A DNA stretch of 64,000 nucleotides from a virus, in IMG/VR virus record IMGVR_UViG_3300022220_000003, positions 1-64,000 of that record; one strand, 5' to 3'. The notes under the pieces were generated by a model. That model did no database searches, was not told the origin of the DNA, and saw nothing but the letters and a program-made list of their open reading frames with translations. Positions 8,341 through 44,940 of the stretch are shown piece after piece (positions within the stretch are counted from its first letter, which is position 1; each line of letters opens with the position of its first letter). The translations under genes were made by a program, and so were the position numbers.

Positions 8341-8346
8341 ATTGCC

Positions 8347-20331: not shown

Positions 20332-20343
20332 GGAGATACGGTG

Positions 20344-20372: not shown

Positions 20373-20381
20373 ACAGCCACT

Positions 20382-23851: not shown

Positions 23852-23856
23852 TAAGG

Positions 23857-23885
23857 TTGCAAGTTACGTGCCTACTGAGTAGACA
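23857..23885 (+). promoter_or_regulatory. Promoter within a repeated element (second copy near 26408)
   Basis: TTGCAA (23857-23862), 17 bases, TAGACA (23880-23885), then a leader with AAGAGG before the ATG at 23902. The stretch TATAATAAGGTTGCAAGTT through CCTACT recurs at 26397-26427 with few changes, so this promoter module was copied. Confidence 0.55.
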
Positions 23886-24388: not shown

Positions 24389-24982
24389 TCACATGGACGT
24401 ATACAAGCCCGTGGCCTCCTCGATCAGTGGGCGGAGCTGATCCCAATAGATCCCCTTGTGATCGGCGACCTCGGTGATCCGGTAGCCCGGGGCTCGGCCG
24501 ATTTTGAGGATCCGCAGATTGTACAGGTCCGCGCCTTGATCGAGCTCGATCATGATGGTGTTGGCTTTGGCCGAGCCTCGGATCCGAAACTGCAAGCCGT
24601 TGCCGAGGTCCAAGAGGTCCTTGGCCCCGAGCATAAACAAGGCGCCCTTGCCGAGCTGCGCAATGATGGTTTGGGCGATCTGAGGGTCGTTGGTCTTGGT
24701 GGTGATCATGGCGTTGTCCTTACCCGAGCGGGGGCAATTCGAGCTCGGCCTCGAGATTGAATACGTAGTAGGCATGACACGAGACAAGATCCTCAAAGTA
24801 GCAGAACAAAACTTGTGTAGTTTTCGGTTGAGCTCGTTGATCTCGGCCCAAATCTCGGACTTGCGGGGGTTACCAGGGCCACACAAGGGCGTACGGGGTA
24901 GGCGGTCCCACTCTTCAAAAAGCTCCTCGAGCCGGGCGTTGATTTCGTCGCGTGTCATGTCTTTGTCCTTGTTCGTGGTCAT
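24389..24982 (-). CDS. Fused ORF: small DEINARL-type protein plus conserved phage protein
   Basis: 197-codon open frame. Residues 1-57 (MTRDEINARLEELFEEWDRLPRTP.. ELNRKLHK) look like one small phage protein. Residues 58-91 are an antisense reading of the 56-bp repeat and junk. From Met92 (24709, AAGGA upstream) there is a complete 106-residue protein of a common phage/plasmid family (TIIAQLGKGALFMLGAKDLLDLGNGLQFRI... DQLRPLIEEATGLYTS). So a recombination event probably joined two genes, and translation may start at both 24982 and 24709. The 24982 start sits directly beside a palindromic promoter. Confidence 0.7.
   Translation of the reverse strand: MTTNKDKDMTRDEINARLEELFEEWDRLPRTPLCGPGNPRKSEIWAEINELNRKLHKFCSATLRILSRVMPTTYSISRPSSNCPRSGKDNAMITTKTNDPQIAQTIIAQLGKGALFMLGAKDLLDLGNGLQFRIRGSAKANTIMIELDQGADLYNLRILKIGRAPGYRITEVADHKGIYWDQLRPLIEEATGLYTSM
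24756..24811 (+). repeat. 56-bp repeat, copy 2 (inverted match at 19605-19660)
   Basis: An exact copy of the leader and first codons of the 19642 gene inserted, antisense, within the fused ORF at 24389-24982. It carries an ATG (MTRDKILKVAEQ) that runs on only briefly in a foreign frame. Confidence 0.85.
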
Positions 24983-25011
24983 GCATACTTAGTATGCAAC
25001 ACCGATGCCAG
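24983..25011 (-). promoter_or_regulatory. Composite promoter: -24/-12-like element plus 15-bp palindrome
   Basis: Palindrome 24983-24997 (GCATACTTAGTATGC read on plus). On the minus strand CTGGCAT, five bases, TTGCA (25011-24995) has GG and GC separated by ten bases as in sigma-54 promoters. The ATG of the minus gene (24982) touches the palindrome. Confidence 0.6.
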
Positions 25012-25071
25012 CTTGCCCCCACCGCAAAACCGCGTTAGACTAGGGATCCGAGCGATGGCTCGGGTTTAAAT

Positions 25072-25223
25072 TATGACATCAATGTCATAGCAAACTGGTA
25101 AAAAGCACTTGAACCTAAGCAAACCAAGCACTTACGCTATGACATTGATGTCATATTAAATACATCAAATCACAGGTTTTGCTAACGATTGCAGACGCTT
25201 AGAACTATGACACAAATGTCATA
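25072..25223. promoter_or_regulatory. Operator triplet A (TATGAC-N6-GTCATA x3), inverted orientation
   Basis: Palindromes at 25072-25089, 25138-25155 and 25206-25223; pitches 66 and 68 bases. The order 66 then 68, and the sequences between the sites read on the minus strand, show the cassette is inverted relative to B, C and D. It lies between two outward-facing composite promoters. Confidence 0.8.
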
Positions 25224-25302
25224 GGTAATCGGTGTTTTTCGGGTTTGACCCCTACAGTTGAGAGCTAACCCCTTGATCTTTGGTTGCGGCGGGGTCTAAA
25301 AA

Positions 25303-25331
25303 CCTGGCATTGGTGTTGCATACTAAGTATG
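25303..25331 (+). promoter_or_regulatory. Composite promoter before 25360
   Basis: CTGGCAT, five bases, TTGCA (25303-25319), GG to GC spacing ten; palindrome GCATACTAAGTATGC at 25317-25331. The gene follows after a 28-base leader containing GAGAGG. Confidence 0.6.
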
Positions 25332-25359
25332 CATAACCCAAACACGAGAGGCTGAGGCC

Positions 25360-25614
25360 ATGTCACAACAACGTTTCAATCCCTTGCACTTCGGATTCAA
25401 TTGGACCTCGGACGGTTGGTATGATTTTGATCATACCTCGGCCCACAAGGCAGCTCGGGCAGCTCGTGACACCGAGGCCCGCCGCTTGCGCAAGGCTGGC
25501 CACAAGGTTCGTTGTTGGACCACCAGCGGCCAGTTGGTGAGCCAGGGCGGGATCGGCTCAGGCAAGCCCCACATTGAGTTGATCGTTAGCGTTTACGGGT
25601 TGACCGTGAGCTAA
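25360..25614 (+). CDS. Small basic phage/plasmid protein
   Basis: 84 residues. HKAARAARDTEARRLRKAGHKVRCWTTSGQLVSQGGIGSGKPHIEL is a familiar pattern of small phage and plasmid proteins of unknown function, with an N-terminal helix and a beta hairpin. It is driven by a composite promoter and followed by a double hairpin. Confidence 0.7.
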   Translation: MSQQRFNPLHFGFNWTSDGWYDFDHTSAHKAARAARDTEARRLRKAGHKVRCWTTSGQLVSQGGIGSGKPHIELIVSVYGLTVS

Positions 25615-25635
25615 GCCACGAGCTCGCCAAGCTCG

Positions 25636-25677
25636 GCCCCCGAGAGGGGGCCAGGGGCCCGCCTAGTGCGGGCCTTT
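25636..25677 (+). terminator. Double hairpin terminator
   Basis: GGCCCCC/GGGGGCC followed by GGCCCGC/GCGGGCC and TTT. It ends the 25360 transcript or attenuates into 25697, whose ribosome site AGGAGG follows. Confidence 0.55.
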
Positions 25678-25696
25678 GGCGTTAGGAGGCCCGATC

Positions 25697-26287
25697 ATGG
25701 CAACAGTTACAATCAACACCGAGGGCGTTCTGATCACCGTATCGAGCCCGTATCACCCAGACTTTCCGGCCCGAGCTCGCAAGCTCGGCGGGAGTTGGGA
25801 CGATGCCCGCAAGCTCTGGTCTTTTGACCCTCGAGACCTCGAGCGGGTGCGGGAGCTCTGCCGGGATATTTTTGGCACCGATGGCACCGAGGGCGAGGGC
25901 GAGCTCGTGACGCTGCGGGTGGTGTTCGCCGAGACTGCGGACACCTACGATCGGACCTGCTACGTGGCCGGGCGCCAAGTGGCCCGATCCTGGGGTCGGG
26001 ATGGCGGGGCGGTGCTTGGCGAGGGCGTGGTGGTGCTCGAGGGTGGGTTTGGGTCCGGTGGCAGCCGCAAGAACCCAACCTTGACCGTGCGAGCCGGTAC
26101 CGTGATCGAGGTGCGAGACGTGCCCGCGGGCGCCAAACGCGAGGCCGATCTCGGTGGCGAGGTGGAGCTCCTCGGCGATGCCACGGCGTCAACCGATTTT
26201 CGGTTGCTCACGGCCGAGCGGGCCCGGTTGCTCGAGAGGCTCGCCGAGGTCGAGGAGGCCCTTGCCCAATGGGCGGGCACCGAGTAG
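25697..26287 (+). CDS. Hypothetical protein with HARP-like N-terminus
   Basis: 196 residues from the ATG at 25697 (AGGAGG upstream). Residues 15-60 (SSPYHPDFPARARKLGGSWDDARKLWSFDPRDLERV) resemble the HARP-type module, also seen alone in phage and plasmid proteins. A Gly-rich beta middle and a C-terminal coiled coil (ERARLLERLAEVEEALAQ) follow. Function unknown. Confidence 0.65.
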   Translation: MATVTINTEGVLITVSSPYHPDFPARARKLGGSWDDARKLWSFDPRDLERVRELCRDIFGTDGTEGEGELVTLRVVFAETADTYDRTCYVAGRQVARSWGRDGGAVLGEGVVVLEGGFGSGGSRKNPTLTVRAGTVIEVRDVPAGAKREADLGGEVELLGDATASTDFRLLTAERARLLERLAEVEEALAQWAGTE

Positions 26288-26298
26288 GGTGACCCCAT

Positions 26299-26367
26299 GA
26301 GGCGGGGGCCCGTGGGGGCCGGCGGTTTCGCAACCGCGCCGAGCGGGTTCGAATCCCGCCTGCCTCT
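26299..26367 (+). tRNA. tRNA-like sequence, probably degenerate
   Basis: Acceptor GAGGCGG (26299-26305) pairs with CTGCCTC (26360-26366) through seven pairs including one G-T. A perfect T arm, GCGGG TTCGAAT CCCGC, lies at 26343-26359. The middle can form GCGGT/ACCGC (26322-26337), but the loop has only six bases (TTCGCA) and the D arm is short. The total of about 69 bases is below normal, so a functional anticodon is doubtful. It may be a tRNA fossil or an attachment-site remnant carrying a tRNA 3' half. Confidence 0.5.
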
Positions 26368-26442
26368 CAACGCGTCGCATTATCCACACAAGACACATAT
26401 AATAAGGTTGCAAGTTGCGTGCCTACTAAGTGAACATGTCTA

Positions 26443-26471
26443 TTGACAGTGGACCGGCGGCGGGGTAGGGC
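26443..26471 (+). promoter_or_regulatory. Leaderless promoter TTGACA-17-TAGGGC
   Basis: TTGACA (26443-26448), 17 bases, TAGGGC (26466-26471), six bases, ATG at 26478. Just upstream is the second copy of the 23843-type promoter module (26397-26436), which lacks its own gene. Confidence 0.6.
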
Positions 26472-26477
26472 GGTGGG

Positions 26478-26657
26478 ATGTCAACCGAGGCCGAGCTCCT
26501 ACAGACGTACAAAAACCTAATCACCGAGATCGCCGAGCTCCAACAGGCGTACCAGATCCTAGGAGTACAGATCGCCGAGGTCACCGATCGGTTTCACGAG
26601 GCCTTGGCCCTCCAACGGGTGGTGCTTGAAAAGAAGGCGGGTGACGACCATGAGTGA
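26478..26657 (+). CDS. Short coiled-coil protein
   Basis: 59 residues, placed by the leaderless promoter. Almost entirely helical (AELLQTYKNLITEIAELQQAYQ). It overlaps the next gene by 8 bases (ATGAGTGA). Function unknown. Confidence 0.6.
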   Translation: MSTEAELLQTYKNLITEIAELQQAYQILGVQIAEVTDRFHEALALQRVVLEKKAGDDHE

Positions 26658-26925
26658 CCACGCGAGCCAACGGATCGCCGAGCTCCGAGACAAGCTAGAC
26701 AAGATCGAGGTGGGCCTCGCGGGGATCCGGGGAGACGTGGCTAGGCTCGAGCGGTCCAAGCGGACACCACCCCGGGCGGTGATGGATCGAATAGCGGATC
26801 TTTGCCTCAGGGTGACGGTGGGAGCTCTCGAGGTGCGCCGAGACGTGGTCAAATCCGATCGTTTCGAGGCCACCTCCAAGGAACAAAAAAAGCGGACCGA
26901 GCCCCACCGCGGCCGGGCCCCGTAG
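26650..26925 (+). CDS. Short coiled-coil protein
   Basis: 91 residues from the ATG at 26650. Helical, charged (RIAELRDKLDKIEVGLAGIRGDVARLE), basic C-terminus. It probably forms a pair with the upstream gene. Unknown. Confidence 0.6.
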   Translation: MSDHASQRIAELRDKLDKIEVGLAGIRGDVARLERSKRTPPRAVMDRIADLCLRVTVGALEVRRDVVKSDRFEATSKEQKKRTEPHRGRAP

Positions 26926-26948
26926 GGCCCGAGCCGCTCGGCGGTGGG

Positions 26949-27383
26949 TCACGCGGCCACCTTGCCAGCACAGACCGGCCCGAGCCCGGACTCGATTGAG
27001 TTGGGATCGGTGAGCTCGCGGCCACAGCGGCCACACTCGCCAGCATGCCAAAACTCGACGCGGTGGGCCTGCTCGGAGGCCTCGGCGAGCTTGGCCAGGT
27101 ACCACGCGAAGGCCTTGGCGCTCGGGGCCTCGGCGGTGACGCGGCTCTTGGCGGTGTGCCTGAGGGTGTGCGGCTTGTCCGGAAAGATGCAACCCATATA
27201 GCTATAGTCGTGTTCATTGTCGGAGCCCGTCAGCACCGAAACGAACCAAGGGGCCGTTGTTTTGTTCCCGCGTGCCTTGGTTACCTGGTAGGTGTACCGG
27301 GTGCCCGTGGCCGTGCTCACCAGGGTGAATTTTGCGCGGCCGGCAAACAAAAACGCTACGATGGCAGTGATAGCAGTGATCAT
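26949..27383 (-). CDS. DUF6011-like zinc-finger protein with N-terminal hydrophobic segment
   Basis: 144 residues. The C-terminal GECGRCGRELTDPNSIESGLGPVCAGK is the DUF6011 zinc-finger signature, found in phage and plasmid proteins of unknown function. The N-terminus (ITAITAIVAFLFAG) is hydrophobic. Start ATG at 27383 follows AGGACACCAAC and a ~100-base conserved leader from the composite promoter at 27486-27514. Confidence 0.75.
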   Translation of the reverse strand: MITAITAIVAFLFAGRAKFTLVSTATGTRYTYQVTKARGNKTTAPWFVSVLTGSDNEHDYSYMGCIFPDKPHTLRHTAKSRVTAEAPSAKAFAWYLAKLAEASEQAHRVEFWHAGECGRCGRELTDPNSIESGLGPVCAGKVAA

Positions 27384-27485
27384 GTTGGTGTCCTGTGGGT
27401 TGGGGTTTTTGTTCTCGATCCGGCCACCCTCTCGGCCCGTGTGGTTTGCCCTCGCCGCCCCGTGTGCTGCCTGGCTGCGTTGACT
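27384..27485 (-). promoter_or_regulatory. Conserved leader, copy 1
   Basis: Between the palindromic promoter and the 27383 start. It shares AGCACACG, ACACGGGCCGAGAG, GGCCGGAT-GAGA and a CCCA-AGGACACCAAC end with the leaders at 27858-27962 and 29606-29707. Such conservation over about 100 untranslated bases suggests a cis-acting RNA element. Confidence 0.55.
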
Positions 27486-27514
27486 GCATACTAAGTATGC
27501 ACGTTGGGTGCCAA
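27486..27514 (-). promoter_or_regulatory. Composite promoter for 27383
   Basis: Palindrome GCATACTAAGTATGC at 27486-27500; minus strand TTGGCAC, five bases, GTGCA (27514-27498), GG to GC spacing ten. Confidence 0.55.
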
Positions 27515-27614
27515 GTTTTTGGGGTCGTTTGGGGCGGGCGGGGAGCTCTCGCCACGAGAAAACAAGGGGTTAGACGCGGCCGGCGGCCTTGGTGGAGTGT
27601 GGGCCCAATACCTC

Positions 27615-27766
27615 TATGACTTAGCTGTCATAGTTGTACTTGGTTGATATTGCTAGAGAAACCGCTGATTTTGCGTATTTACTATGACAGATATGTCATA
27701 GGCTACTTGCTTGTTTTTGTTGAGCAAAGGCCGTTTTGAGTGGTTTGCTATGACTTAGATGTCATA
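27615..27766. promoter_or_regulatory. Operator triplet B
   Basis: TATGAC-N6-GTCATA at 27615-27632, 27683-27700 and 27749-27766; pitches 68 and 66. The sequences between the sites are conserved with triplets C and D (for example GTACTTG, GATATT, GATTTT-CGTATTTACTATGAC), making a cassette of about 260 bases from 27598 to 27857. Confidence 0.85.
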
Positions 27767-27828
27767 GGTACCGGTTGGGGGTTTGGGGCTCGGGCCCGTT
27801 CTATCGCGGGTTTGCGGGCGGTGCAAGG

Positions 27829-27857
27829 TTGGCACGGTGGGTGCATACTAAGTATAC
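27829..27857 (+). promoter_or_regulatory. Composite promoter for 27963
   Basis: TTGGCAC, five bases, GTGCA (27829-27845), GG to GC spacing ten; palindrome-like GCATACTAAGTATAC at 27843-27857. Confidence 0.55.
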
Positions 27858-27962
27858 AGTTGCGGCGGCCGGGGAGCACACGAGGACGCACCAACAACCG
27901 ACACGGGCCGAGAGCGGGGCCGGATCGAGACGCAAAACCAACCCCAACCCAAGGACACCAAC
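27858..27962 (+). promoter_or_regulatory. Conserved leader, copy 2
   Basis: Same elements as the minus-strand leader at 27384-27485 and the leader at 29606-29707, ending AAGGACACCAAC before the ATG. It contains the ribosome site AAGGA. Confidence 0.55.
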
Positions 27963-28250
27963 ATGACCAACAACAACACCAACACCGTAGCCCTTCACGT
28001 TGCCACCGAGGCCGAGCTCGATTCTCGGACGGTCGAGACGCGTTGGAGCGACCCAAGGACAGCCCGATGGCTAGGAGCTAGCCAAAAATGGCGGTTTGAG
28101 GGTGGTGACGCGATAGTGGTTTGCGGCCACTATCCCGAGGCGTGGGCCGTGGTTAGAGTCGAAGACCGGATCAAGGTCTGTGACATCAGCCGCGGCGGTG
28201 GTGTGGTCGGAGCGTTTGGTTATTTCGACCTCAGGGCCGAGGTAGCCTAG
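27963..28250 (+). CDS. Hypothetical accessory protein
   Basis: 95 residues. Asn/Thr-rich N-terminus, then a beta-rich domain (KWRFEGGDAIVVCGHYPEAWAVVRVED.. GAFGYFDLRAEVA). No family recognised. A single-gene transcription unit: composite promoter, conserved leader, terminator. Confidence 0.65.
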   Translation: MTNNNTNTVALHVATEAELDSRTVETRWSDPRTARWLGASQKWRFEGGDAIVVCGHYPEAWAVVRVEDRIKVCDISRGGGVVGAFGYFDLRAEVA

Positions 28251-28269
28251 CCTCAACCACCGCGGAGCT

Positions 28270-28317
28270 CGGCCCCACTTCGGGGCCGGGCGGCGGCGGG
28301 GCTCGGTCCGGTTTTTT
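28270..28317 (+). terminator. Rho-independent terminator
   Basis: CGGCCCC/GGGGCCG hairpin (28270-28288), then a GC-rich stretch and TTTTTT (28312-28317). Nearly the same terminator sequence follows the gene ending at 30058, so it travels with the cassette. Confidence 0.65.
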
Positions 28318-28376
28318 GTTGCCCGGTGGGTGTATGCGGGGGTAGGGGGAAGCATGCAATACAGTGATCAAGCAAT
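28315..28376 (+). repeat. 62-bp inverted repeat, left copy (partner 28706-28767)
   Basis: Contains a TTGCCC/TAGGGG promoter and the start of the 28354 gene. Identical to the reverse complement of 28706-28767 except for two bases. The arms enclose 329 bp. Confidence 0.85.
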
Positions 28377-28788
28377 CGAGCGGGCGGCCAAGGCTGCTCA
28401 CGAGATCCACACCATCTATTGCGCGGCCCTCGGCGATCATTCGCATCTACCTTGGGAGGGCACGCCCACCGAGATCCGTGATTCGGTAAAGGCGGGGGTG
28501 CGAGCAGCTCTCGAGGGATTATCCCCCGAGGTGCTACACCAGCGGTGGGTTGACTACAAATTTGCTCAAGGGTGGACGTGGGGCCCTCGCAAATCCCTCG
28601 AGGATAAGACACACCCCAACCTTGTGCCATGGTCACAGCTCCCGCAATGGGATCAGGCCAAGGACGTCATTTTTGACGCGGTGGTACGGGGTGTGTTTGA
28701 TCACCATTGCTTGATCACTGTATCGCATGCTTCCTCCTACCCCCGCATACACCCACCGGGCAACAAAGGAAATTGCGGTGGAGCCTGA
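28354..28788 (+). CDS. RyR-domain protein, C-terminus inside an inverted repeat
   Basis: 144 residues from the ATG at 28354, five bases after a TAGGGG -10 box. AAHEIHTIYCAALGDHSHLPWE, then HQRWVDYKFAQGWTWGPRKSLEDKTHPNLVPWSQLP and AKDVIFDAVVRGV match the RyR domain (pfam02026) found in phage proteins as well as ryanodine receptors. The last residues (ITVSHASSYPRIHPP) are encoded antisense by the right-hand repeat arm. Inversion of the 329-bp segment would give a different short product from the same start. Confidence 0.8.
   Translation: MQYSDQAIERAAKAAHEIHTIYCAALGDHSHLPWEGTPTEIRDSVKAGVRAALEGLSPEVLHQRWVDYKFAQGWTWGPRKSLEDKTHPNLVPWSQLPQWDQAKDVIFDAVVRGVFDHHCLITVSHASSYPRIHPPGNKGNCGGA
28706..28767 (-). 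repeat. 62-bp inverted repeat, right copy (partner 28315-28376)
   Basis: Carries, on the minus strand, the same promoter and start (ATG CGA TAC AGT) as the left arm, but its frame stays open for only a few dozen codons of antisense sequence. Confidence 0.85.
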
Positions 28789-29026
28789 CCTGCAAATGGG
28801 CCTAGCAATGCTGATCTCGCGGCTCGAGGCTATCCGCGAGGAGCTCGCGGCCCACACGATCGCCATGCTCACCCGCGACGCCGCACACGAGGGGGTGGTG
28901 GCTCAGGATCTACACAAACGAGTAGCCAACCGCTACCTCGATCACGTCAAACGTGCCACCGAGCTCCACAAGTCCAAACCCTCAACCAAGGCCATACCAC
29001 CGGTGATCCATCGTCGAAAGCCATAG
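28778..29026 (+). CDS. Small helical protein, paralogue of 30681
   Basis: 82 residues from GTG at 28778, with AAAGGA upstream, overlapping the RyR gene by 11 bases. ISRLEAIREELAAHTIAMLTRDA...LHKRVANRYLDHVKRATEL aligns with the gene at 30681 (LLGIREDLAVITMAILSERV...VRTAKLYSTYLHNVHTI). Unknown function. Confidence 0.65.
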   Translation: MEPDLQMGLAMLISRLEAIREELAAHTIAMLTRDAAHEGVVAQDLHKRVANRYLDHVKRATELHKSKPSTKAIPPVIHRRKP

Positions 29027-29096
29027 GGCCCGTTTATGGCGCTGCGGGGTTGGGGTTGGGGTGCATACTAGGGCGACAATCAACGAGGGGCGTTTT

Positions 29097-29114
29097 GGGG
29101 GCCCTATGGGCCCC
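29097..29114. terminator. GC-rich hairpin
   Basis: GGGGGCCC, TAT, GGGCCCC. Perfect short stem between opposing units; no T-run. Confidence 0.4.
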
Positions 29115-29151
29115 TAGGGGGCTCTTGAGCAGCTCACACCCAGAAACGAAC

Positions 29152-29211
29152 CTAACAAACCACCTCGTTTGTGGCTTCAAGGCGGTATGTCGGGGTGCTT
29201 ACTCGGCGCAT
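29152..29211 (-). CDS. Short ORF behind a degenerate composite promoter
   Basis: 19 codons starting at the ATG at 29211, with AAGGAGC upstream and a palindromic promoter at 29236-29264. This is the position a gene holds in the other cassettes, so it may be a decayed gene or a leader peptide. Weak evidence. Confidence 0.3.
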   Translation of the reverse strand: MRRVSTPTYRLEATNEVVC

Positions 29212-29235
29212 TGTTTGCTCCTTGTTGCGTGTTAT

Positions 29236-29264
29236 GCATACTTAGTATGCAACACCGATGCTTA
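29236..29264 (-). promoter_or_regulatory. Composite promoter, degenerate -24 box
   Basis: Perfect palindrome GCATACTTAGTATGC (29236-29250) and TTGCA, but the -24 GG is AG (TAAGCAT). Followed only by a 19-codon ORF. A GGTATCATACCGGTAT motif like that of the par array lies at 29280-29295. Confidence 0.45.
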
Positions 29265-29364
29265 GTTTTGAGGTCATGCCGGTATCATACCGGTATAGTA
29301 TCAACCTGATATCAATAGGTTAGAGCCCGGCGGCGAGCTCGGAGGCGTGTAGGCCCAATACCTC

Positions 29365-29516
29365 TATGACTTAGCTGTCATAGTTGTACTTGCCTGATAT
29401 TGCTTAGGAAACCGCTGATTTTACGTATTTACTATGACATGGCTGTCATAGCGTAAGGGTTTGTTTTTGTTTGTGAACGAGGATATTTGTCGATACGCTA
29501 TGACAACCGAGTCATA
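29365..29516. promoter_or_regulatory. Operator triplet C
   Basis: Sites at 29365-29382, 29433-29450 and 29499-29516; pitches 68 and 66. The cassette 29349-29605 aligns along its length with 27598-27857 and 31350-31612. Confidence 0.85.
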
Positions 29517-29576
29517 GTCCACGGACCACCCGCAGGCTATAACCTTATTTTATCGCGGGTTTGCGGCGGCGGCAAG

Positions 29577-29605
29577 TTGGCATTGGTGTTGCATACTAAG
29601 TATGC
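29577..29605 (+). promoter_or_regulatory. Composite promoter for 29708
   Basis: TTGGCAT, five bases, TTGCA (29577-29593); palindrome GCATACTAAGTATGC 29591-29605. Conserved leader copy 3 follows (29606-29707). Confidence 0.6.
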
Positions 29606-29707
29606 AGTTAACGCAGTCGAGCAGCACATGGGACGGCGTTGGCAACCGACACGGGCCGAGAGCGGGGCCGGACTGAGACAACCAACCCAAACCCAAAGGA
29701 CACCACC
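29606..29707 (+). promoter_or_regulatory. Conserved leader, copy 3
   Basis: About 100 bases sharing AGCACA-G, CCGACACGGGCCGAGAG, GGGGCCGGA and AAAGGACACCACC with the leaders at 27384-27485 and 27858-27962. The genes behind the three leaders are unrelated, so the leader is conserved independently of the coding sequence. Confidence 0.55.
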
Positions 29708-30058
29708 ATGTTGACTGCTACCATCACCCGAAAAGCCGAAGTCGCCTACTTGTTCACCCTGTTGGACGGCTGTCGAGCCTCGGATCCTGCGTTGTTTCGG
29801 CGTTTGCGGCGAGCCTATCGAGTACTCAAGGAGATCGACCTCGCTAACAACGCCGTGCTTTGCGAGGTGGAATATGAGAGCGAGGACGTGCCGCAAACCG
29901 TGATTCGGTTTCGGGGCACCTACTTTGCGGCCAACGGAGTCGGGAAGTTTTCAAAGCAGACCGTAATCCATGCGGGCGGCGACCACTTCGCGATCTACCT
30001 CTCGGACCGGCCGGGGCGTTACTGTGGCCTCGAAGGCTACACGCTACCCCTGTACTAG
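29708..30058 (+). CDS. Accessory protein, paralogue of 36763
   Basis: 116 residues from the ATG at 29708. LRRAYRVLKEIDLANNAVLCEVEYESEDVPQTVI aligns with the 36763 gene (LRRLVKLLKELDRLN.. VEYESEDVPSTCV). A helical N-terminus and beta C-terminus. Unknown function. Confidence 0.65.
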   Translation: MLTATITRKAEVAYLFTLLDGCRASDPALFRRLRRAYRVLKEIDLANNAVLCEVEYESEDVPQTVIRFRGTYFAANGVGKFSKQTVIHAGGDHFAIYLSDRPGRYCGLEGYTLPLY

Positions 30059-30073
30059 GCACCGCGGGTTGCT

Positions 30074-30143
30074 CGGCCCCACCTCGGGGCCGGGCGGCGG
30101 GGGTGCCACGAGGCGCAGCGGGGCTCGGTCCTGTTTTTTGTTC
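30074..30143 (+). terminator. Rho-independent terminator, cassette type
   Basis: CGGCCCC/GGGGCCG hairpin, GC-rich linker with a GGCTCGGTCC box, TTTTTT. Same design as 28270-28317, with a short GTGCCACGAGGCGCA insertion. Confidence 0.65.
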
Positions 30144-30182
30144 CTTGCGGGGCTTGCCTACCTTGGGATCATGTTTACCACG

Positions 30183-30211
30183 TTGACACCTTGAGGGCGC
30201 TAGGGTAGGGG
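30183..30211 (+). promoter_or_regulatory. Leaderless promoter TTGACA-17-TAGGGG
   Basis: TTGACA (30183-30188), 17 bases, TAGGGG (30206-30211), five bases, ATG at 30217. Confidence 0.6.
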
Positions 30212-30216
30212 GTGGT

Positions 30217-30480
30217 ATGAGCGACCTGGAAAAGTTGATAACCGCCAAGGAAACCTACGATTCGACACCTACAAATCTCGACCTCGAGGACGCGTTGGAA
30301 TCCGTACTAGGCACCCTCGAGCTGGTGGCCCGGGCTCAGGTCGCGGCGGCGTTGATCCAAGCCAACCCGAGTTTTGTCGAGGCTCCTAAACTGTTGGCCA
30401 ACACCGTCAACAAGATCACGCTAGCGCTGGCGTTCAACCAAGGGGAGCAAACGGAGCAAACGAACAATGTCGACCCTTGA
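30217..30480 (+). CDS. Hypothetical helical protein
   Basis: 87 residues placed by the leaderless promoter. Helical (LEDALESVLGTLELVARAQVAAAL). Unknown. It overlaps the next gene by 14 bases; first of a three-gene unit. Confidence 0.6.
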   Translation: MSDLEKLITAKETYDSTPTNLDLEDALESVLGTLELVARAQVAAALIQANPSFVEAPKLLANTVNKITLALAFNQGEQTEQTNNVDP

Positions 30481-30694
30481 TAGTTCGGTGTGGGCCGTGA
30501 GCCGGGCCCTCGAGAAGCGCAACGAAATCGAGCTGCGTCGGGTCAAGGCCCTCGAGTTTCGAAACCAGATCGAGATCTTGCGGGCGGTGGTGGAGTATTC
30601 CAACGGCGCGGGTGGCCTTGGGTCAAAAGACCTCGCCGATCGGGCGTTCGAGATCCACCAAATGCTCAAGGAGCGGCCCTATGCCAGATCCTAA
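30467..30694 (+). CDS. Hypothetical helical protein
   Basis: 75 residues. VSRALEKRNEIELRRVKALEFRNQIEI is strongly helical. Unknown. It overlaps both neighbours by 14 bases. Confidence 0.55.
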   Translation: MSTLDSSVWAVSRALEKRNEIELRRVKALEFRNQIEILRAVVEYSNGAGGLGSKDLADRAFEIHQMLKERPYARS

Positions 30695-30959
30695 AGCCCC
30701 CTCGGTGGCCCTGCTCGAGGAACAACGCCGCCTAAACCCCGATCTCGCGGCCATCTATCGCCACCTCCTTGGGATCCGTGAGGACCTCGCCGTGATCACC
30801 ATGGCGATTCTATCCGAGCGGGTGATCGCCGCCGGCGTACCCCTCGAGGACGTGCCCGTGAGGACCGCTAAGCTCTATTCGACCTACCTCCACAATGTGC
30901 ACACCATCCGAGAGCGCCCCGAGCCCCCCACCGGGGGCCGGGGGCCCGCCGGGCCCTAG
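30681..30959 (+). CDS. Small helical protein, paralogue of 28778
   Basis: 92 residues from the ATG at 30681. Aligns with 28778 over IREDLAVITMAIL...YLHNVHTI. Pro/Gly-rich C-terminus encoded by a GC-rich hairpin that probably also serves as terminator. It overlaps the convergent gene by four bases. Confidence 0.6.
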   Translation: MPDPKAPSVALLEEQRRLNPDLAAIYRHLLGIREDLAVITMAILSERVIAAGVPLEDVPVRTAKLYSTYLHNVHTIRERPEPPTGGRGPAGP

Positions 30960-31231
30960 CGGTAGGGTAGGCCGCGGGCCTTATTGATGGCCCGAGTTGC
31001 GAGCCTACGCAATTGGGATCCTAGGTGATAATAGTTGTTGACCGATCCGGCCTCGCGATACCGCTGGCCCCGATCGGAGATCCGCAACACGAGGGCGCCG
31101 GTGGTGTGCACATAAATGTGCCCGTCAAAGGCCTCAACAACGCGATATTCTTGGCCCCTCGCGTTGAACGTGGCCGAGGCGGTAAAGAGGGGAAGTTGAG
31201 CAAAGTTGGTGTCTGTGTTCGTTGTGGTCAT
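30956..31231 (-). CDS. Hypothetical accessory protein, start at a palindromic promoter
   Basis: 91 residues. The ATG at 31231 directly abuts the palindrome 31232-31246, so no ribosome site is possible. Domain: YRVVEAFDGHIYVHTTGALVLRISDRGQ..  beta-rich, then a basic helix (LRRLATRAINKARG). Unknown. Confidence 0.65.
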   Translation of the reverse strand: MTTTNTDTNFAQLPLFTASATFNARGQEYRVVEAFDGHIYVHTTGALVLRISDRGQRYREAGSVNNYYHLGSQLRRLATRAINKARGLPYR

Positions 31232-31260
31232 GCATACTTAGTATGCAACACCGGTGCCAG
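31232..31260 (-). promoter_or_regulatory. Composite promoter for 31231
   Basis: Palindrome 31232-31246; minus strand CTGGCAC, CGGTG, TTGCA (31260-31244), a full match to the sigma-54 consensus core. A TGATACCGGTATGATACC motif like the par array lies at 31289-31306. Confidence 0.65.
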
Positions 31261-31371
31261 GTTTTCTGAGGTATTGGGGCCGTATTGGGGTGATACCGGT
31301 ATGATACCACGCCTAAAATCAAGCACTTGCGGCCGGCGGGAGAGCTCGGAGGTGTGTGGGTGCAATACCTC

Positions 31372-31523
31372 TATGACTTAGGTGTCATAGTTGTACTTGG
31401 TTGATATTACTAGGGAAACCGGTGATTTTACGTATTTACTATGACATTAAAGTCATAGGCTACTTGGTTGTTTTTGTTGAGCAAAGGGCGTTTTCGGTGG
31501 TTTGCTATGACATAAATGTCAGG
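31372..31523. promoter_or_regulatory. Operator triplet D
   Basis: Sites at 31372-31389, 31440-31457 and 31506-31523 (the last ends GTCAGG instead of GTCATA); pitches 68 and 66. Confidence 0.85.
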
Positions 31524-31583
31524 GTTGGTTATTGGGCCGTTGGCTTCGAGCCTAGTTTATCGGGTGTTTGCGGGCCTGGCAAG

Positions 31584-31612
31584 TTGGCACCGGTGTTGCA
31601 TACTAAGTATGC
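31584..31612 (+). promoter_or_regulatory. Composite promoter for 31613
   Basis: TTGGCAC, CGGTG, TTGCA (31584-31600); palindrome GCATACTAAGTATGC (31598-31612), then ATG at once. Symmetric in design with 31232-31260, with triplet D between the two outward units. Confidence 0.65.
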
Positions 31613-32263
31613 ATGACCAACACGAACAAAACCACCGCCACCTACGAGAGCGCCCGGCAACTAGTCGCCACCCTCCGCGGGGAGCTCGAGCAGCTCACCT
31701 TGTTGCCCTCCGACACCCTCGAGATCTGCGATCAGTTGGTTGCTCGTGTCGAGCTCGCCAAGGCGCGGGCGGATAGCGCGCCTAGCGATATCGTGAAGTT
31801 TTCGCGGCCCGAGCCCGAGAGCGTGCTCGAGCGTGAAAAGGCGGCGGCCCGCCGGGCGGGTGCGGCGGCGGTGGTTGAGGACGCCAAGGCCAAGGCCGAG
31901 TTTCTGGCCAAGACTGCAGTCAAGGGCCCTCGCAACCCCGTGCACTTGGTTGAGGTCGAGGAGGGCCACCACGTTGACGTGATCCCCCGCAAGTCGATTC
32001 GTCTGCACGGCTTGGACCGCAACCGCCGCAACGGCCCGGTGGCCTACGATCGGACCTTCGAGATCGGCGACTCGGCCGAATACGACAGCTATAACACCTC
32101 ATTTATCGGCCGGATCGTGGCCATCGGCGCCAAGACCGTGACGATTGACACCAAGATGGGTGAGCGGCGGCGATTGAAGCTCGAGCAGTTCTCGTGGCGC
32201 AACCGCCACTTTGACCTTGAGACCGTGGCCCGCCGCAACGCCGAGGAAAGTTATTACATCTAA
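31613..32263 (+). CDS. Hypothetical protein of a phage/plasmid accessory family
   Basis: 216 residues, ATG abutting the palindromic promoter. N-terminal helix (LVATLRGELEQLTLLP); Ala/Lys-rich coiled coil in the middle; C-terminal beta domain (FEIGDSAEYDSYNTSFIGRIVAIGAKTVTI) with an FDLETVARRN tail. Such a C-terminal domain is common in phage and megaplasmid proteins of unknown function. First gene of a four- to five-gene unit. Confidence 0.7.
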   Translation: MTNTNKTTATYESARQLVATLRGELEQLTLLPSDTLEICDQLVARVELAKARADSAPSDIVKFSRPEPESVLEREKAAARRAGAAAVVEDAKAKAEFLAKTAVKGPRNPVHLVEVEEGHHVDVIPRKSIRLHGLDRNRRNGPVAYDRTFEIGDSAEYDSYNTSFIGRIVAIGAKTVTIDTKMGERRRLKLEQFSWRNRHFDLETVARRNAEESYYI

Positions 32264-32279
32264 CCAAGGAGCCAACACC

Positions 32280-32705
32280 ATGACCACCAACGTACGCACC
32301 GAGCGCAAGTTTGAGACCTACTCCCGCGGGGCCGAGCTCGTGAGAGCTATCAAGGCCATGTGGGAGTGCAACGAAGGTGACCGCGGGCGGCCCGATGGTA
32401 ACACTCGGATCAACACTCGTATTGAGGCCCTAGCGGCCGAATACGATTTGACCTCGGTTGAGTGGATCTATTGGGCCCGCATCGCCATGGGGTTAACGAA
32501 ACCCAATCAACTTTACCTTTGCCGCGGCCTCCCAACACACTGGGTTGCCACCGACGCCAACAATCAGCCTTGGCTGTTTCCGGCGGTGGCGGGTGGGTGG
32601 AAGCACCGAACGCGGTTCGTTAGCCACCTCGAGGCCTTGATCGAGACCGACAACCTTTACGCCACCGGTACGGGGTGGTGCAAGTCTGAGGAGGGTTCAC
32701 CATGA
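32280..32705 (+). CDS. Hypothetical accessory protein
   Basis: 141 residues from the ATG at 32280, preceded by AAGGAG. Mixed alpha/beta with many Trp; no family recognised. It overlaps the next gene by four bases. Confidence 0.6.
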   Translation: MTTNVRTERKFETYSRGAELVRAIKAMWECNEGDRGRPDGNTRINTRIEALAAEYDLTSVEWIYWARIAMGLTKPNQLYLCRGLPTHWVATDANNQPWLFPAVAGGWKHRTRFVSHLEALIETDNLYATGTGWCKSEEGSP

Positions 32706-33103
32706 CCACCAAAACCACAATGTGGGAAGTCTACAACCCGAGCTCGGGGCACAGTCTAGGCCATTACAAGGCCGAGAGCTCCGAGGAGGCGATCGAGGCG
32801 TGCTGCCGGGCGGCGGGGTACGGGTCGGAGGCGGAGGCCTCCGCGGCCACCGGCGGGCGGGGGGTGCTCCGAGCTCTCGAGGTTGAGGAGGTCGATCTCA
32901 ACACCGACAACGGATCCAAAACGCGGGCATACCTAGACGAATCAGGGTTTGCGACCTTCGAACATGCCAACGCCGCGGGCGATCGGATGATCGTCAAGGC
33001 CAAGGGCAACTGCCTCGAGATTGTGCCCGCGTCCGGTTGTTGTCTCAAATCCAATGTGGAGCACGCCGGCCGGGCCGTCTATATTTGGGTGCAACCATGT
33101 TGA
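32702..33103 (+). CDS. Hypothetical accessory protein
   Basis: 133 residues. WEVYNPSSGHSLGHYKAESSEEAIEACCRAAGY resembles small phage proteins in which a beta hairpin precedes an EEAI helix. The rest is beta-rich. Unknown. Confidence 0.6.
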   Translation: MTTKTTMWEVYNPSSGHSLGHYKAESSEEAIEACCRAAGYGSEAEASAATGGRGVLRALEVEEVDLNTDNGSKTRAYLDESGFATFEHANAAGDRMIVKAKGNCLEIVPASGCCLKSNVEHAGRAVYIWVQPC

Positions 33104-33498
33104 CCATGTTCGTTGTTGGGTGGCGCTGCGGGTGCGGTTGCGAGACCTTGCACCGCATGTATCTGAAAACCTCACAGGAGGCCTTGGCGCTAACGGTGCA
33201 GCTCCGCGATAGCACCGCCACCGAGACCTGGGTGTGGCGAATGCGACTCCCGCGGCGCAAGGAGGCGATCCTAGTGGCGCTCAACTACTGCTGTGGGGCT
33301 CGATATCGAGCTCGAGGGGGAGCTCGAGCAGCTCGCGCACCTAGTGCGATCCGATTGGGAGGCCGAGGCGGAGGCCGAGGAGCCGACGCACGGCGAGGGC
33401 CCGCCCGGTGGCCGAGGAGCCGACGCACGGCGAGGGCCCGCCCGGAGGCCGAGGAGCCGACGCACGGCGAGGGCCCGCCCGGTGGCGAGTTTCATTGA
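33097..33498 (+). CDS. Hypothetical protein, 3' part disrupted by a 37-bp repeat
   Basis: 133 codons. The first 65 (CGCGCETLHRMYLKTSQEALALTVQ...VWRMRLPRRKE) look genuine. After about 33290 the frame reads the complement of another ORF (33293, GTG, with GAG CTC-type codon use) and three copies of a 37-bp repeat, so the C-terminus is probably not native. Confidence 0.45.
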   Translation: MLTMFVVGWRCGCGCETLHRMYLKTSQEALALTVQLRDSTATETWVWRMRLPRRKEAILVALNYCCGARYRARGGARAARAPSAIRLGGRGGGRGADARRGPARWPRSRRTARARPEAEEPTHGEGPPGGEFH

Positions 33499-33595
33499 GT
33501 GGCCTTGGCCCGCGGATTGCAAGGAGATCGGATATGACGAAAAAGGTATCCAAAACCACCCGAAATGGCCATTTACTTGGACGGTTAGTCCGTGA
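33293..33595 (+). CDS. Short ORF reading into the 37-bp repeat (possible frameshifted gene)
   Basis: Starts GTG at 33293 with window-typical codon use (LDIELEGELEQLAHLV). With a single 37-bp unit it would end EPTHGEGPPGGEFH, stop. Two extra units shift it by two bases, so the present 100-codon frame runs on into unrelated sequence. Copy-number change would switch the ending. Confidence 0.35.
   Translation: MGLDIELEGELEQLAHLVRSDWEAEAEAEEPTHGEGPPGGRGADARRGPARRPRSRRTARARPVASFIEWPWPADCKEIGYDEKGIQNHPKWPFTWTVSP
33373..33483 (+). repeat. 37-bp minisatellite, three tandem copies
   Basis: Units 33373-33409, 33410-33446 and 33447-33483, differing at the last base (T, A, T). Since 37 is not a multiple of three, each copy is read in a different frame. 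Confidence 0.85.
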
Positions 33596-33776
33596 CGCGG
33601 AAAAGGCCATTATTATCCAATACATAGCCAAGCATCGCGGAAACAAGACCCACGCGGCCGAGGCCCTCGGGGTGACGCACCGGCATTTGCAGCGGCGGTG
33701 CGTGGCGCTCGGTATCGAGGGGGCGGACCTCGAGGGCGGCAACGTGGGTGTTGTAATCGTGGGCGGGCTTGTGTAG
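33534..33776 (+). CDS. Second orphan Fis-type DNA-binding protein
   Basis: 80 residues from the ATG at 33534 (AAGGAG upstream). DAEKAIIIQYIAKHRGNKTHAAEALGVTHRHLQRRCVALGI is an HTH_8/Fis domain like that of sigma-54 activators; no AAA+ domain. It shares the fold with 17809. Placement at the end of the accessory region makes it a candidate binder of the operator triplets or composite promoters. A terminator follows. Confidence 0.8.
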   Translation: MTKKVSKTTRNGHLLGRLVRDAEKAIIIQYIAKHRGNKTHAAEALGVTHRHLQRRCVALGIEGADLEGGNVGVVIVGGLV

Positions 33777-33811
33777 GCTCGGGCCTACTCCGGATTTTCG
33801 GTTTTCGCGCA

Positions 33812-33840
33812 AAGCCCCCGGCTCTAGCAGGCCGGGGGCG
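33812..33840 (+). terminator. Hairpin terminator after the Fis-type gene
   Basis: GCCCCCGGC (33814-33822), eight-base loop, GCCGGGGGC (33831-33839). Confidence 0.55.
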
Positions 33841-34007
33841 CCTATGCTAGGGTGGAGCCGGCCCCCGCGTCTCAATTCATGGTGATCAACCGCCCGCGGT
33901 AGCCTAAGCCATTGCCAACGAACGTTGATCGGGGTGTGGGGGCCACCAAATAGGTCAGGCATTTTCTCTTGTGAAAGTCCATTGATTTCGGTGTAGTGTG
34001 GCGCGCT

Positions 34008-34310
34008 ATGTCGATAGACGATCAGCAATTCATACGGATTCCTGAGCCCCATATCGGCTGGGATACGGGGCTACTGCTGCGGGTGGTGGCTGGGGAGCTC
34101 CGCGGGGCGGAGCTCCGCCGCGAGGTGGATTATATCCACGCGGTGGAGCGGGTCTCGGTGGACATTTCGCAGCAACTAGTGAGGACGGCGCAAGGGTCGG
34201 TGAGGTGGGCGTTGATCGATCTCGTGGTCTCGGGCCTACGACGGCGTTTGCTCGAGCTCTCGAGCCGGCCGGCGGGGCCGTTGCCTCCTCGGGGTTGGCC
34301 TTGCGCTTAA
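34008..34310 (+). CDS. Hypothetical helical protein
   Basis: 100 residues from the ATG at 34008; TAGTGT eight bases upstream is a possible -10 box. Central helices (RREVDYIHAVERVSVDISQQLVR). Unknown. Confidence 0.5.
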   Translation: MSIDDQQFIRIPEPHIGWDTGLLLRVVAGELRGAELRREVDYIHAVERVSVDISQQLVRTAQGSVRWALIDLVVSGLRRRLLELSSRPAGPLPPRGWPCA

Positions 34311-34411
34311 ATGAAAAAGTCCAATGATTCCAAGAGGTAACGCCATTTGGGGGTGCTGGTGGGGGTTTGGGCTTAAATAATGTGGGCGGTCTAGTTTGGC
34401 GCGGAGCCCGG

Positions 34412-34792
34412 TTAATCCTGTTGGTTGCGGTCGCGGTCTCGGTCTAGGTCGCGGTCGCGGTCGCGGTCGTTTGGTCTCGATTTGTTCCGTATCCGGGCCA
34501 GGAGTGGTCCGGTCTCGTTTTCGGGCGGGGTTTCGAGCGGTGGGAGGTGGTCTCGTATGCCCGGGCGCCTTGGGCCACTGTAGCGGCCGGTATTCATGCG
34601 TTCAAATGGCCAAATCGAGTAGGCCTGGCCCGTGTCGGACTCGGCGAGGTCTGGGGTTACTTTCTCGAGGGTGTGGGGCCTCGTTTTGCACTGGCATACC
34701 GGGCAACGGATCTTGGTGGTCACGAGGTGGCACCGGTGGCACGTAGGGGCCGTGAAATAGGATCCGATCGTGGTGTTGACGGGGCTCGGCAT
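34412..34792 (-). CDS. Zinc-finger protein with Asp-Arg repeat tail
   Basis: 126 residues. CHRCHLVTTKIRCPVC gives two CxxC pairs near residue 20. The C-terminus is a (DR)n repeat (DRDRDRDLDRDRDR) encoded by CGGTCG-type hexamer repeats at 34421-34470, prone to slippage. Function unknown. No strong ribosome site. Confidence 0.5.
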   Translation of the reverse strand: MPSPVNTTIGSYFTAPTCHRCHLVTTKIRCPVCQCKTRPHTLEKVTPDLAESDTGQAYSIWPFERMNTGRYSGPRRPGIRDHLPPLETPPENETGPLLARIRNKSRPNDRDRDRDLDRDRDRNQQD

Positions 34793-34879
34793 ACTGCACC
34801 TCGAGGGGTTGATTGGGGGCAGCTTATCACGGGCTCGGGTGGAGGTTTACTGGCATGGTGTGACGTCACGATGTGTCAG

Positions 34880-35660
34880 GTTGTTGTGTATGCATACACG
34901 ATGCCAAAAAATAATGTTCTGGGTTATTGGGGGGTTAGGTGGAGGGTATGGCGGGCTTTGTCAGGCTGTTTGGATGATGTGGTGCGTCATTGAGGTGGGG
35001 TTGGCGGTTTGGGGTTATTTAGGTGGGTTGTTGTCGATTTGGTTGATTGAAAAAGTGGTGTGTTTGTAGGGGTTTACAAGGGGGGCTTGACGTGACTTGT
35101 CAACGTTTTTCGAGGCGTAACGATTACAGGTAGTTAGCTACTTATGTAAGTGGTTATGGAAGTGGTGGGATGTGTCGAGTTGTGACAGGTGGCGGTGTAA
35201 GTCGGTGTAATCGTTGCGGTATTGGTATGGGAGGGCGTGGGGGGTGATTGGGTGTCTCGATTTGTGGACAGTGTTGCGGTTCCGAGTGTCTTGATTTGTG
35301 GACAGGGGTGGCGAAATTTCGCCAGGGGGGTTTTGGGGGTTTTGAGGGGGTGGGGTGAGGGATTGAGTTAGGGGGTGGGTTTGCGGCGGTTTTTGGGGCC
35401 TTAGGGGGCTTGTCACGTGGTGGTGTAGGGTGGTGGGGAGGTGTTTCGGTTGGTGGGCACGGCGGGAGATGTGCACCATTTTGGAGCAGTTGGTGAGGGG
35501 TGTGCACCATTTTGGAGCAGGTGGGGTGAAATGTGCACCATTTTGGAGCAGTTACAGGTTGGTGAGGTTGAGGGTATAAGGTTTTGTTATAGGTGGGTAG
35601 TGTTTTTGGGCGGTTTACTTATGGGTTTTGGGGGGTTGGGGGTTGTTTGTGGGCGGCCCG
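34880..35660. other. G/T-skewed, gene-poor region
   Basis: About 800 bases with extreme G and T excess on the plus strand (runs such as GGGGTGGGGTGAGGG) and no frame with the codon habits of the window. It contains two copies of TGATTTGTGGACAG-like sequence (near 35257 and 35289) and the iteron-like repeats below. It may hold an origin, a G-quadruplex-rich site or a packaging/recombination site. Confidence 0.5.
35471..35551 (+). repeat. Iteron-like direct repeats, three copies
   Basis: TGTGCACCATTTTGGAGCAG begins at 35471, 35502 and 35532: 20-bp direct repeats at 31- and 30-base pitch, about three helical turns. A typical arrangement for a replication-initiator or repressor array. Confidence 0.75.
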
Positions 35661-35843
35661 CGGCGGGGTGGACGCGACCGGCCTCGGGCCGGGCCTGGTG
35701 CTGCGGTGTAGGCCCCGCCCGCACCTCCGCACCGCTCCGCCCCTAAGCCCCGTCCTGTGCAGCTCTCGAAGAGCTCCCCGGCCTCGATCTCGGTTCCCAG
35801 TGGTTCGTCCCTATGGGAGCTCGAGCTCGGCGAGCCGTGCGAC

Positions 35844-36191
35844 CTAACGAGGGCCAACACCGTACACACGGCGGTCGAGGGCGATCCGCAGCTCGGCATG
35901 GACGCGTTTGGCAACCTCAAACTTGGTGGCCGCGTCGTTGAGCTCGGCGTTAGTCTCGCCGCCCATGAACATGGCCCACAAGCTACCAACGCCCCCGGTG
36001 GCGTCTGCGATAGCTCGCTTACGCTCGGCCGCCTCCTCAACCTCGGCCGCGGCCTCGGCGATGGCCTTGGCGAGCTCGGCACGATAGATAAGCTCGGCGC
36101 TACGGTCGGTGCCCGCGGCGGCCCGGTAGGCGGCCTGGGTGTTCTCGACGACGGTGGCGAGGGCGGCGGCGGTGGTAATAGTCTTGGTCAT
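35844..36191 (-). CDS. Helical accessory protein
   Basis: 115 residues from the ATG at 36191. Ala/Glu-rich helices (ELIYRAELAKAIAEAAAEVEEAAERKRAIADATGG), then GSLWAMFMGGETNAELNDAATKFE. Unknown. It follows the 36334 gene by 11 bases in the same unit. Confidence 0.6.
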   Translation of the reverse strand: MTKTITTAAALATVVENTQAAYRAAAGTDRSAELIYRAELAKAIAEAAAEVEEAAERKRAIADATGGVGSLWAMFMGGETNAELNDAATKFEVAKRVHAELRIALDRRVYGVGPR

Positions 36192-36202
36192 GGTCTCGAT
36201 CC

Positions 36203-36334
36203 TCAGAGCACCACCGCGGCGGCGGCCTCGTTGCGGGCGGCGAGCTTGGGGCGGCGGGTGCCCTCGCCACCGACAACCAAGACCACAATCGCGACCACCG
36301 CGATAACTGCCTTGATTGTCTTGTTGCGTGTCAT
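36203..36334 (-). CDS. 43-residue membrane peptide behind a palindromic promoter
   Basis: The ATG at 36334 abuts the palindrome 36335-36349. One membrane helix (IKAVIAVVAIVVLVVGG) and a basic tail. Leaderless first gene of the unit with 35844. Confidence 0.6.
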   Translation of the reverse strand: MTRNKTIKAVIAVVAIVVLVVGGEGTRRPKLAARNEAAAAVVL

Positions 36335-36363
36335 GCATACTTAGTATACAACAACCGTGCCAG
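36335..36363 (-). promoter_or_regulatory. Composite promoter for 36334
   Basis: Palindrome with one change (GCATACTTAGTATAC, 36335-36349); minus strand CTGGCAC, five bases, TTGTA (36363-36347), so the -12 GC is GT here. Confidence 0.5.
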
Positions 36364-36485
36364 AGCTCGGGGGTGGCACGGCGGGTGCAACTCGAGGAGG
36401 GCGACACAATATCAAGGGGTTACGGGCCGAGAGCTCCCCGCCGAGCTCCCCGAGGGCCGTGTTTAGCGTGTAGGGCCAATACCTC

Positions 36486-36659
36486 TATGACTTAGGTGTC
36501 ATAGTTGAGATTAGGGGCTAACTACTCGTAATGAGGGCGAAAATGCCAATTGGTACTAGACTACTATGGCAATCATGTCATAGTTGAGGATTGGGCTAAC
36601 TGCACGTAATAGCGAAAGAATCCTAGGTTAGACCGATTTACTATGGCATCTATGTCATA
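36486..36659. promoter_or_regulatory. Operator triplet E, stretched by one helical turn per step
   Basis: Sites at 36486-36503, 36565-36582 and 36642-36659; pitches 79 and 77, exactly 11 more than the 68 and 66 of B-D. Two sites begin TATGGC instead of TATGAC. Confidence 0.8.
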
Positions 36660-36733
36660 GCTATGATGCTCTGCGTTATCAAGGTGATTGGCCTAAGTGC
36701 TTGATATTGTGTTGAGAGCTCCTCGCCACGGTA

Positions 36734-36762
36734 TTGGCATCAGGGTTGCATACTAAGTATGC
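36734..36762 (+). promoter_or_regulatory. Composite promoter for 36763
   Basis: TTGGCAT, five bases, TTGCA (36734-36750); palindrome 36748-36762, then ATG at once. Confidence 0.6.
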
Positions 36763-37418: not shown

Positions 37419-37450
37419 TTATGTATACTTAGTGTACACACCATAGGGCC

Positions 37451-37590
37451 ACCACCTGGTCACCTGGCACACCACCTGGTCGCCTGGCACACCACCTGGT
37501 CACCTGGCACACCACCTGGTCGCCTGGCACACCACCTGGTCACCTGGCACACCACCTGGTCGCCTGGCACACCACCTGGTCGCCTGGCAC
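37451..37590. repeat. 20-bp minisatellite, seven copies in two alternating types
   Basis: Units ACCACCTGGTCRCCTGGCAC with R = A,G,A,G,A,G,G in order. The alternation suggests that the original duplicated block was 40 bp. No spacers, so not a CRISPR. It lies between a gene-poor stretch and 37713. Confidence 0.9.
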
Positions 37591-37712
37591 ACCACCGCCG
37601 CCACCGCCGCCTAGTCAACCTCACCGGACGATCGTGGGGCGGGCAAAAACAACAACTTTTGAAGGGAGGTCGCCAAGGGGGGCAAAAACAAGGTGCAGCG
37701 GTAAACCTAGTG

Positions 37713-44939: not shown

Positions 44940-44940
44940 G

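Follow-up and report, generated by a model that had tools for sequence, protein, structure and literature searches.

Sigma-54-like promoter cassettes with adjacent start codons in a phage accessory-gene island and in unrelated phages

The stretch of DNA analysed here (the window) is the first 64 kb, 64,000 nucleotides, of a 93,466-bp phage record in IMG/VR (IMGVR_UViG_3300022220_000003, or G000). The phage encodes an integrase and a ParA, and the ParA lies together with small open reading frames (ORFs) without known function in an island at ~19.4-37.7 kb. Ten copies of a composite element, in which a sequence resembling the -24/-12 element of sigma-54 promoters runs into a palindrome, occur in this island as five divergent pairs. 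Three dyads of the form TATGAC-N6-GTCATA (operators; 15 in all) lie between the members of each pair, in a cassette of ~350 bp. The composites are listed below as candidate promoters, together with predicted leaders and the Shine-Dalgarno (SD) sequences seen in front of start codons.

24983-25011, minus strand: candidate promoter 1 (CTGGCATCGGTGTTGCA plus palindrome), ATG 24982 directly after the palindrome
25071-25224, no strand: operator triplet TATGAC-N6-GTCATA, dyads at 25071, 25137 and 25205
25304-25332, plus strand: candidate promoter 2, 27-nt leader with SD before ATG 25360
27383-27485, minus strand: leader of ~100 nt, homologous among candidate promoters 3, 4 and 6 and thus shared by three cassette arms
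27486-27514, minus strand: candidate promoter 3, 102-nt leader before ATG 27383
27614-27767, no strand: operator triplet, dyads at 27614, 27682 and 27748
27829-27857, plus strand: candidate promoter 4, 105-nt leader before ATG 27963
29236-29264, minus strand: composite 5, decayed (TAAGCAT, GG replaced), only a 19-codon frame downstream
29364-29517, no strand: operator triplet, dyads at 29364, 29432 and 29498
29577-29605, plus strand: candidate promoter 6, 102-nt leader before ATG 29708
31232-31260, minus strand: candidate promoter 7, ATG 31231 directly after the palindrome
31371-31524, no strand: operator triplet, dyads at 31371, 31439 and 31505 (31505 degenerate)
31584-31612, plus strand: candidate promoter 8, ATG 31613 directly after the palindrome
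33505-33534, plus strand: an extra, eleventh sigma-54-like match without palindrome (TTGGCCCGCGGATTGCA), ATG 12 bases on
36335-36363, minus strand: candidate promoter 9 (GT for GC, as in E. coli pspA), ATG 36334
36485-36660, no strand: operator triplet, dyads at 36485, 36564 and 36641
36734-36762, plus strand: candidate promoter 10, ATG 36763 directly after the palindrome and an in-frame second ATG with SD at 36790

A search of the window with GCATACTAAGTATGC, allowing up to three mismatches, returned 23 matches where 0.4 were expected, and the ten sites reported in the initial annotation are present far beyond chance (low coordinates of the 17-mer: 24995-, 25304+, 27498-, 27829+, 29248-, 29577+, 31244-, 31584+, 36347- and 36734+). 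Their conserved core is YTGGCAY-N5-KTGCA. The annotation had placed GG and GC ten bases apart in nine of the ten sites; GG and GC are each kept in nine, but both are kept in only eight, with a spacing of 10 in all eight. Site 29248- reads TAAGCAT and has lost GG, and site 36347- reads TTGTA, with GC changed to GT. It had also been proposed that each site drives an outward-facing unit around an operator triplet, and here the five divergent pairs enclosing triplets stand, with nine of the ten sites facing an ORF; the site that lacks GG faces only the 19-codon frame. The ten sites are not independent: over 188 bp, three of the cassettes (at 27.5, 29.3 and 31.3 kb) share 75-87% identity and are recent copies. 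Conservation over the ten sites is nonetheless concentrated in the composite and palindrome: information content climbs at TTGGCA (-29 to -24), falls across the spacer and comes close to its maximum between -16 and +1, the span of the perfect palindrome (TGCATACTWAGTATGCA). The rest of the 93-kb record has no near-perfect copy of the dyad.

Diverged copies without the exact palindrome occur at 23846 and 26397. At these two places lies a repeated element, ATATAATAAGGTTGCAAGTTRCGTGCCTACTRAGT (23846-23885 and 26397-26436), whose second copy scores as a sigma-54 site on its reverse strand and directly follows a tRNA-like gene (26299-26368, anticodon probably CGC). A perfect composite match at 44941 was set aside as probably coding because it lies inside a short conserved reading frame (SWHVHC); the surrounding 69-bp stretch, 44920-44988, is 93% conserved with a relative and encodes SWHVHCNLI.

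For comparison with known sigma-54 promoters we took the 42 intergenic E. coli motifs from sigma-54 ChIP-seq, given in the same 17-base register in Table 1 of PMC4591121, and applied the resulting position matrix blind to the 93-kb phage. Nine of the ten sites were among the 17 best of ~187,000 positions; at 12.9-16.4 bits they score like genuine E. coli sites, whose leave-one-out median is 14.9. Among E. coli sigma-54 promoters, that of rtcBA agrees with the composite, those of norV and pspA do so with one difference each, and repeated sites of the GTCA..GAC type, three in number, lie upstream at norV. Dyads upstream of the motif, as an enhancer-binding protein would use at a sigma-54 promoter, are present in this phage at three per cassette. 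As sources of the dyad sequence itself, the RtcR and PspF promoter regions, which lack such a dyad, and the NorR sites, which differ in sequence, were rejected.

The position of the start codon gave a further line of evidence. Ten viral records were scanned with the E. coli matrix at a threshold of 11 bits; they were partly chosen for carrying the composite and operator together (the module), so that the count is not a pure sample, and the position of the ATG was used in no selection. Among 120 positions at or above 11 bits, 30 had an ATG exactly 12 bases after the 17-mer where ~2 were expected, and other offsets of the ATG occurred 0-9 times. The same offset was seen in 0 of 22 cases in six control sequences and 0-2 times with column-shuffled matrices. 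Fourteen of the 30 sites belong to a single virus, Rctr197k. Transcription from a sigma-54 promoter starts about 12 bases after GC. Because the published rule places the start 19 bases from the motif centre, transcription is predicted to begin two bases before the ATG, whose position is strongly non-random. The proposal of leaderless transcripts, with an ATG directly after the palindrome in five cases (24982-, 31231-, 31613+, 36334- and 36763+, all of which we recover), is strongly supported at the level of sequence. In three phages, four of the ATGs at +12 have another ATG in the same frame 24-33 bases on, with a Shine-Dalgarno-like sequence.

The module is not confined to one phage. We scanned 2.9 million viral contigs for the operator followed at 36-66 bp by YTGGCAY-N5-KTGCA and found the pattern in 7 contigs, compared with 0 for a control with the composite reversed; a scan for operator pairs by themselves gave three viral contigs. 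Extending the spacing to 67-97 bp gave two contigs, one of which, L060 (45% GC), has the same layout as the window: composite, three operators, composite. Between the end of the proximal dyad and the motif there are 40-62 bp in most of the other phages and 59-121 bp in this one. Across the module-bearing phages, which range from 37 to 66% GC, YTGGCAY-N5-KTGCA is kept and, in many, so is the distance to the ATG. These phages are otherwise unrelated: in an all-versus-all blastp of their ORFs no protein was common to them beyond scattered replication, methylase and structural genes, and no regulatory protein was shared. BLAST of a cassette against phages and plasmids gave no match, and no description of such a module in phages was found in the open-access literature.

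The palindrome behaves differently. It is absent from the other module-bearing phages, and since the exact composite plus palindrome had no match in the viral contig scan, it is not general. The idea that it forms part of a general promoter is therefore not borne out; it is specific to this phage, where it probably adds a second control, such as a repressor site, and only the -24/-12 element is general.

Virus Rctr197k, from a Methylomirabilis enrichment (PMC7412058), entered the analysis only through an island protein. It contains 16 sites of the form GG-N10-GCTAT..ATG, with 0-1 for other spacings and 0-1 for other dinucleotides, and the four sites checked singly each lie directly before an annotated gene. 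Shared dyads upstream of its sites were sought and none were found. Its record (L071) has annotated CRISPR arrays at 10803-12317 and 19281-19535. Among the other records, L061 (6850-7300) and L028 (6760-6960) contain non-coding arrays in which dyads and sigma-54-like sites occur on both strands, most of them not followed by a start codon, and G006 (L030) has a tandem array of TATGACACAAATGTCA with a 16-bp period at 8800-9010.

We suggest that the composites are sigma-54-type, enhancer-dependent and essentially leaderless promoters, which on the sequence evidence is the best explanation and probably the right one. None of the feasible tests contradicted a sigma-54-like reading: the sites fit the E. 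coli matrix, show strict N10 spacing, have dyads at enhancer-like distances and recur with unrelated flanks in other phages. In this scheme the host's RNA polymerase, carrying sigma-54, would sit idle on YTGGCAY-N5-KTGC until an enhancer-binding ATPase of the host, attached to TATGAC-N6-GTCATA ~60-250 bp upstream, responded to a host signal by opening both promoters of the pair. The predicted transcription start is about two bases before the ATG, 11 bases past the motif; five of the ten mRNAs would be essentially leaderless, with leaders of 24-105 nt on the others. A phage-encoded switch, in the form of its own sigma factor or activator gene, was not found in the records searched: PF04552 and PF04542 (sigma-54 and sigma-70) had no match in 11 records, and PF00158 (sigma-54 activator) had none in G000 and the other module-bearing records searched. 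Together with the lack of a shared regulatory protein, these results indicate that the factors reading the module are probably supplied by the host.

Several observations weigh against a sigma-54 assignment. At least six composites lie on both strands within ~450 bp of non-coding DNA in L061, which is odd for promoters, and several of the matrix matches with an ATG at +12 have no operator, including all the Rctr197k sites. The host phylum could be one without sigma-54: proteins of Streptomyces phages are the closest to the major capsid protein (29%), which is compatible with Actinobacteria, and the tRNAs of this phage, G008 and Rctr197k lack an encoded CCA, which is compatible with hosts without sigma-54 and, for this phage, with Actinobacteria. 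The same is true of leaderless sigma-70-type promoters in this phage, TTGAC-N17-TANNNN-N6-ATG near 8.2-8.3 kb, which are conserved in a relative and compatible with hosts without sigma-54 such as Actinobacteria; in addition, TACTAA-N6-ATG in this phage resembles the -10 region of these promoters. On the other side, ParA is 53% identical to a gammaproteobacterial plasmid protein and one island protein is 46-55% identical to Brevundimonas and Caulobacter phage proteins and 47% to one of Rctr197k, and these point to proteobacteria instead. GTDB contigs were scanned for relatives of the phage by DNA polymerase and by terminase, and none were found.

The main rival, which we consider possible and the less likely reading, is that the composite is the site of another host activator, or of an unusual sigma-70-family factor with a sigma-54-like consensus, combined with a weak -10 (TACTAA, TATAAA) and leaderless transcripts. 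Here TACTAA-N6-ATG has the geometry of the phage's own leaderless sigma-70 promoters, the Rctr197k sites run on into TATAAA or TATCAA, PaBG, a relative of Rctr197k, encodes a divergent sigma-70 (PMC7412058), and composites cluster on both strands in L061 and G008. However, the other phages have no common -10 hexamer after the composite, no -35 hexamer stands at the right distance, no match to sigma-70 region 2 was found in the records, and this reading leaves both GG-N10-GC and the agreement with the E. coli matrix to coincidence.

It is unlikely that the triplets and the palindrome are instead operators of a lysogeny repressor that silences the accessory genes, with promoters of any type. An 18-bp dyad with a 6-bp spacer is what a repressor might use, as is a palindrome across the start region; the placing of triplets between divergent promoters is reminiscent of lambda-type operators, and an integrase and ParA are encoded. 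Yet the operators are found far ahead of the start, in most cases 40-120 bp before the -24 element, and phages with no regulatory gene in common carry the same operator sequence. Very improbable is a role as partition, replication or recombination sites spread by duplication with a secondary likeness to promoters, as might be read from a ParA with upstream repeats in the same island and from dense dyad arrays in G006, G008 and L061, because the composites point outward at a fixed distance from start codons and the Rctr197k sites have no dyads.

Returning to sigma-54-type promoters, we consider that the module is most likely carried as a mobile cassette and that phages may plug accessory genes into a host control circuit. 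A wider proposal, made tentatively and held less firmly than the promoter assignment, is that unrelated phages carry a common transferable sigma-54 regulon of leaderless accessory genes, read through TATGAC-N6-GTCATA by one conserved host enhancer-binding protein and activated by a signal of host stress or infection. The module, as a dyad, a -24/-12 element and an ATG at +12, is a sequence handle for finding further members, the activator and the signal.

Other features of the island and the phage were also recorded. A relative, IMGVR_UViG_3300009509_000010, is collinear with this phage at ~70-75% DNA identity and circularly permuted, and its contig ends near the borders of the island. One border carries tandem 20-bp repeats (37430-37616), and at the corresponding end of the relative's contig (L017 1-210) there is a tandem repeat of 30 bp. 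The type Ib-like partition locus at 20000-21273 comprises the small ParA (214 aa) with an 86-aa ORF behind it and is preceded by CCGGTATGATACC-type repeats (20020-20350), a repeat unit also found in the cassettes at 29265 and 31282. A perfect 56-bp inverted repeat (19605-19660 and 24756-24811) includes the start region of ORF 19301-19642 and could mark an inversion or a copied promoter; a second inverted repeat of 62 nt (28315-28376 and 28706-28767) is 97% complementary with its arms 329 nt apart. At the integrase gene (8190-8370), TTGACC-N17-TACAAA-N6-ATG and TTGACG-N17-TACTAT-N6-ATG diverge and are conserved in the relative G001. The cassette gene 31613-32263 and ParA had no relatives in the viral contigs, Rfam gave no match in the window and PADLOC gave none on ten island proteins.

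Transcription in phages is generally taken to be sigma-70-type, phage-encoded or phage-modified. If the sigma-54 assignment is true, these phages draw on a host circuit that is under tight control and requires ATP-driven activation, and their accessory genes stay silent until signalled. T4-type phages carry mobile promoter cassettes, PeSL, composed of an early sigma-70 promoter and a stem-loop; like the cassettes described here they are repeated between accessory genes of a variable island, whereas here the unit is a sigma-54-like divergent pair with a dyad triplet. In T4 middle promoters, a MotA box plus -10, an upstream element replaces the -35 as it does here, but MotA is phage-encoded and the module-bearing phages share no such protein. 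The Deinococcus RDRM/DdrO site (consensus TATGYYHTTARCRKA; PMC8533742) is likewise a palindrome with TATG..CATA, but was rejected: it differs in half-site and spacing and lies on the core promoter. The E. coli norVW promoter, with sigma-54 and three NorR activator sites, shares the YTGGCAY-N5-KTGCA core, GG-N10-GC, an AT-rich stretch after GC and several repeated upstream sites; unlike promoters of the norVW type, the cassettes are phage-borne, form divergent pairs and use a different dyad. The ATG lies two bases after the predicted start in the phage, whereas E. coli sigma-54 distances are mostly 20-90 (PMC4591121), and such a near-absence of leader would, if true, be a new arrangement for sigma-54 promoters.

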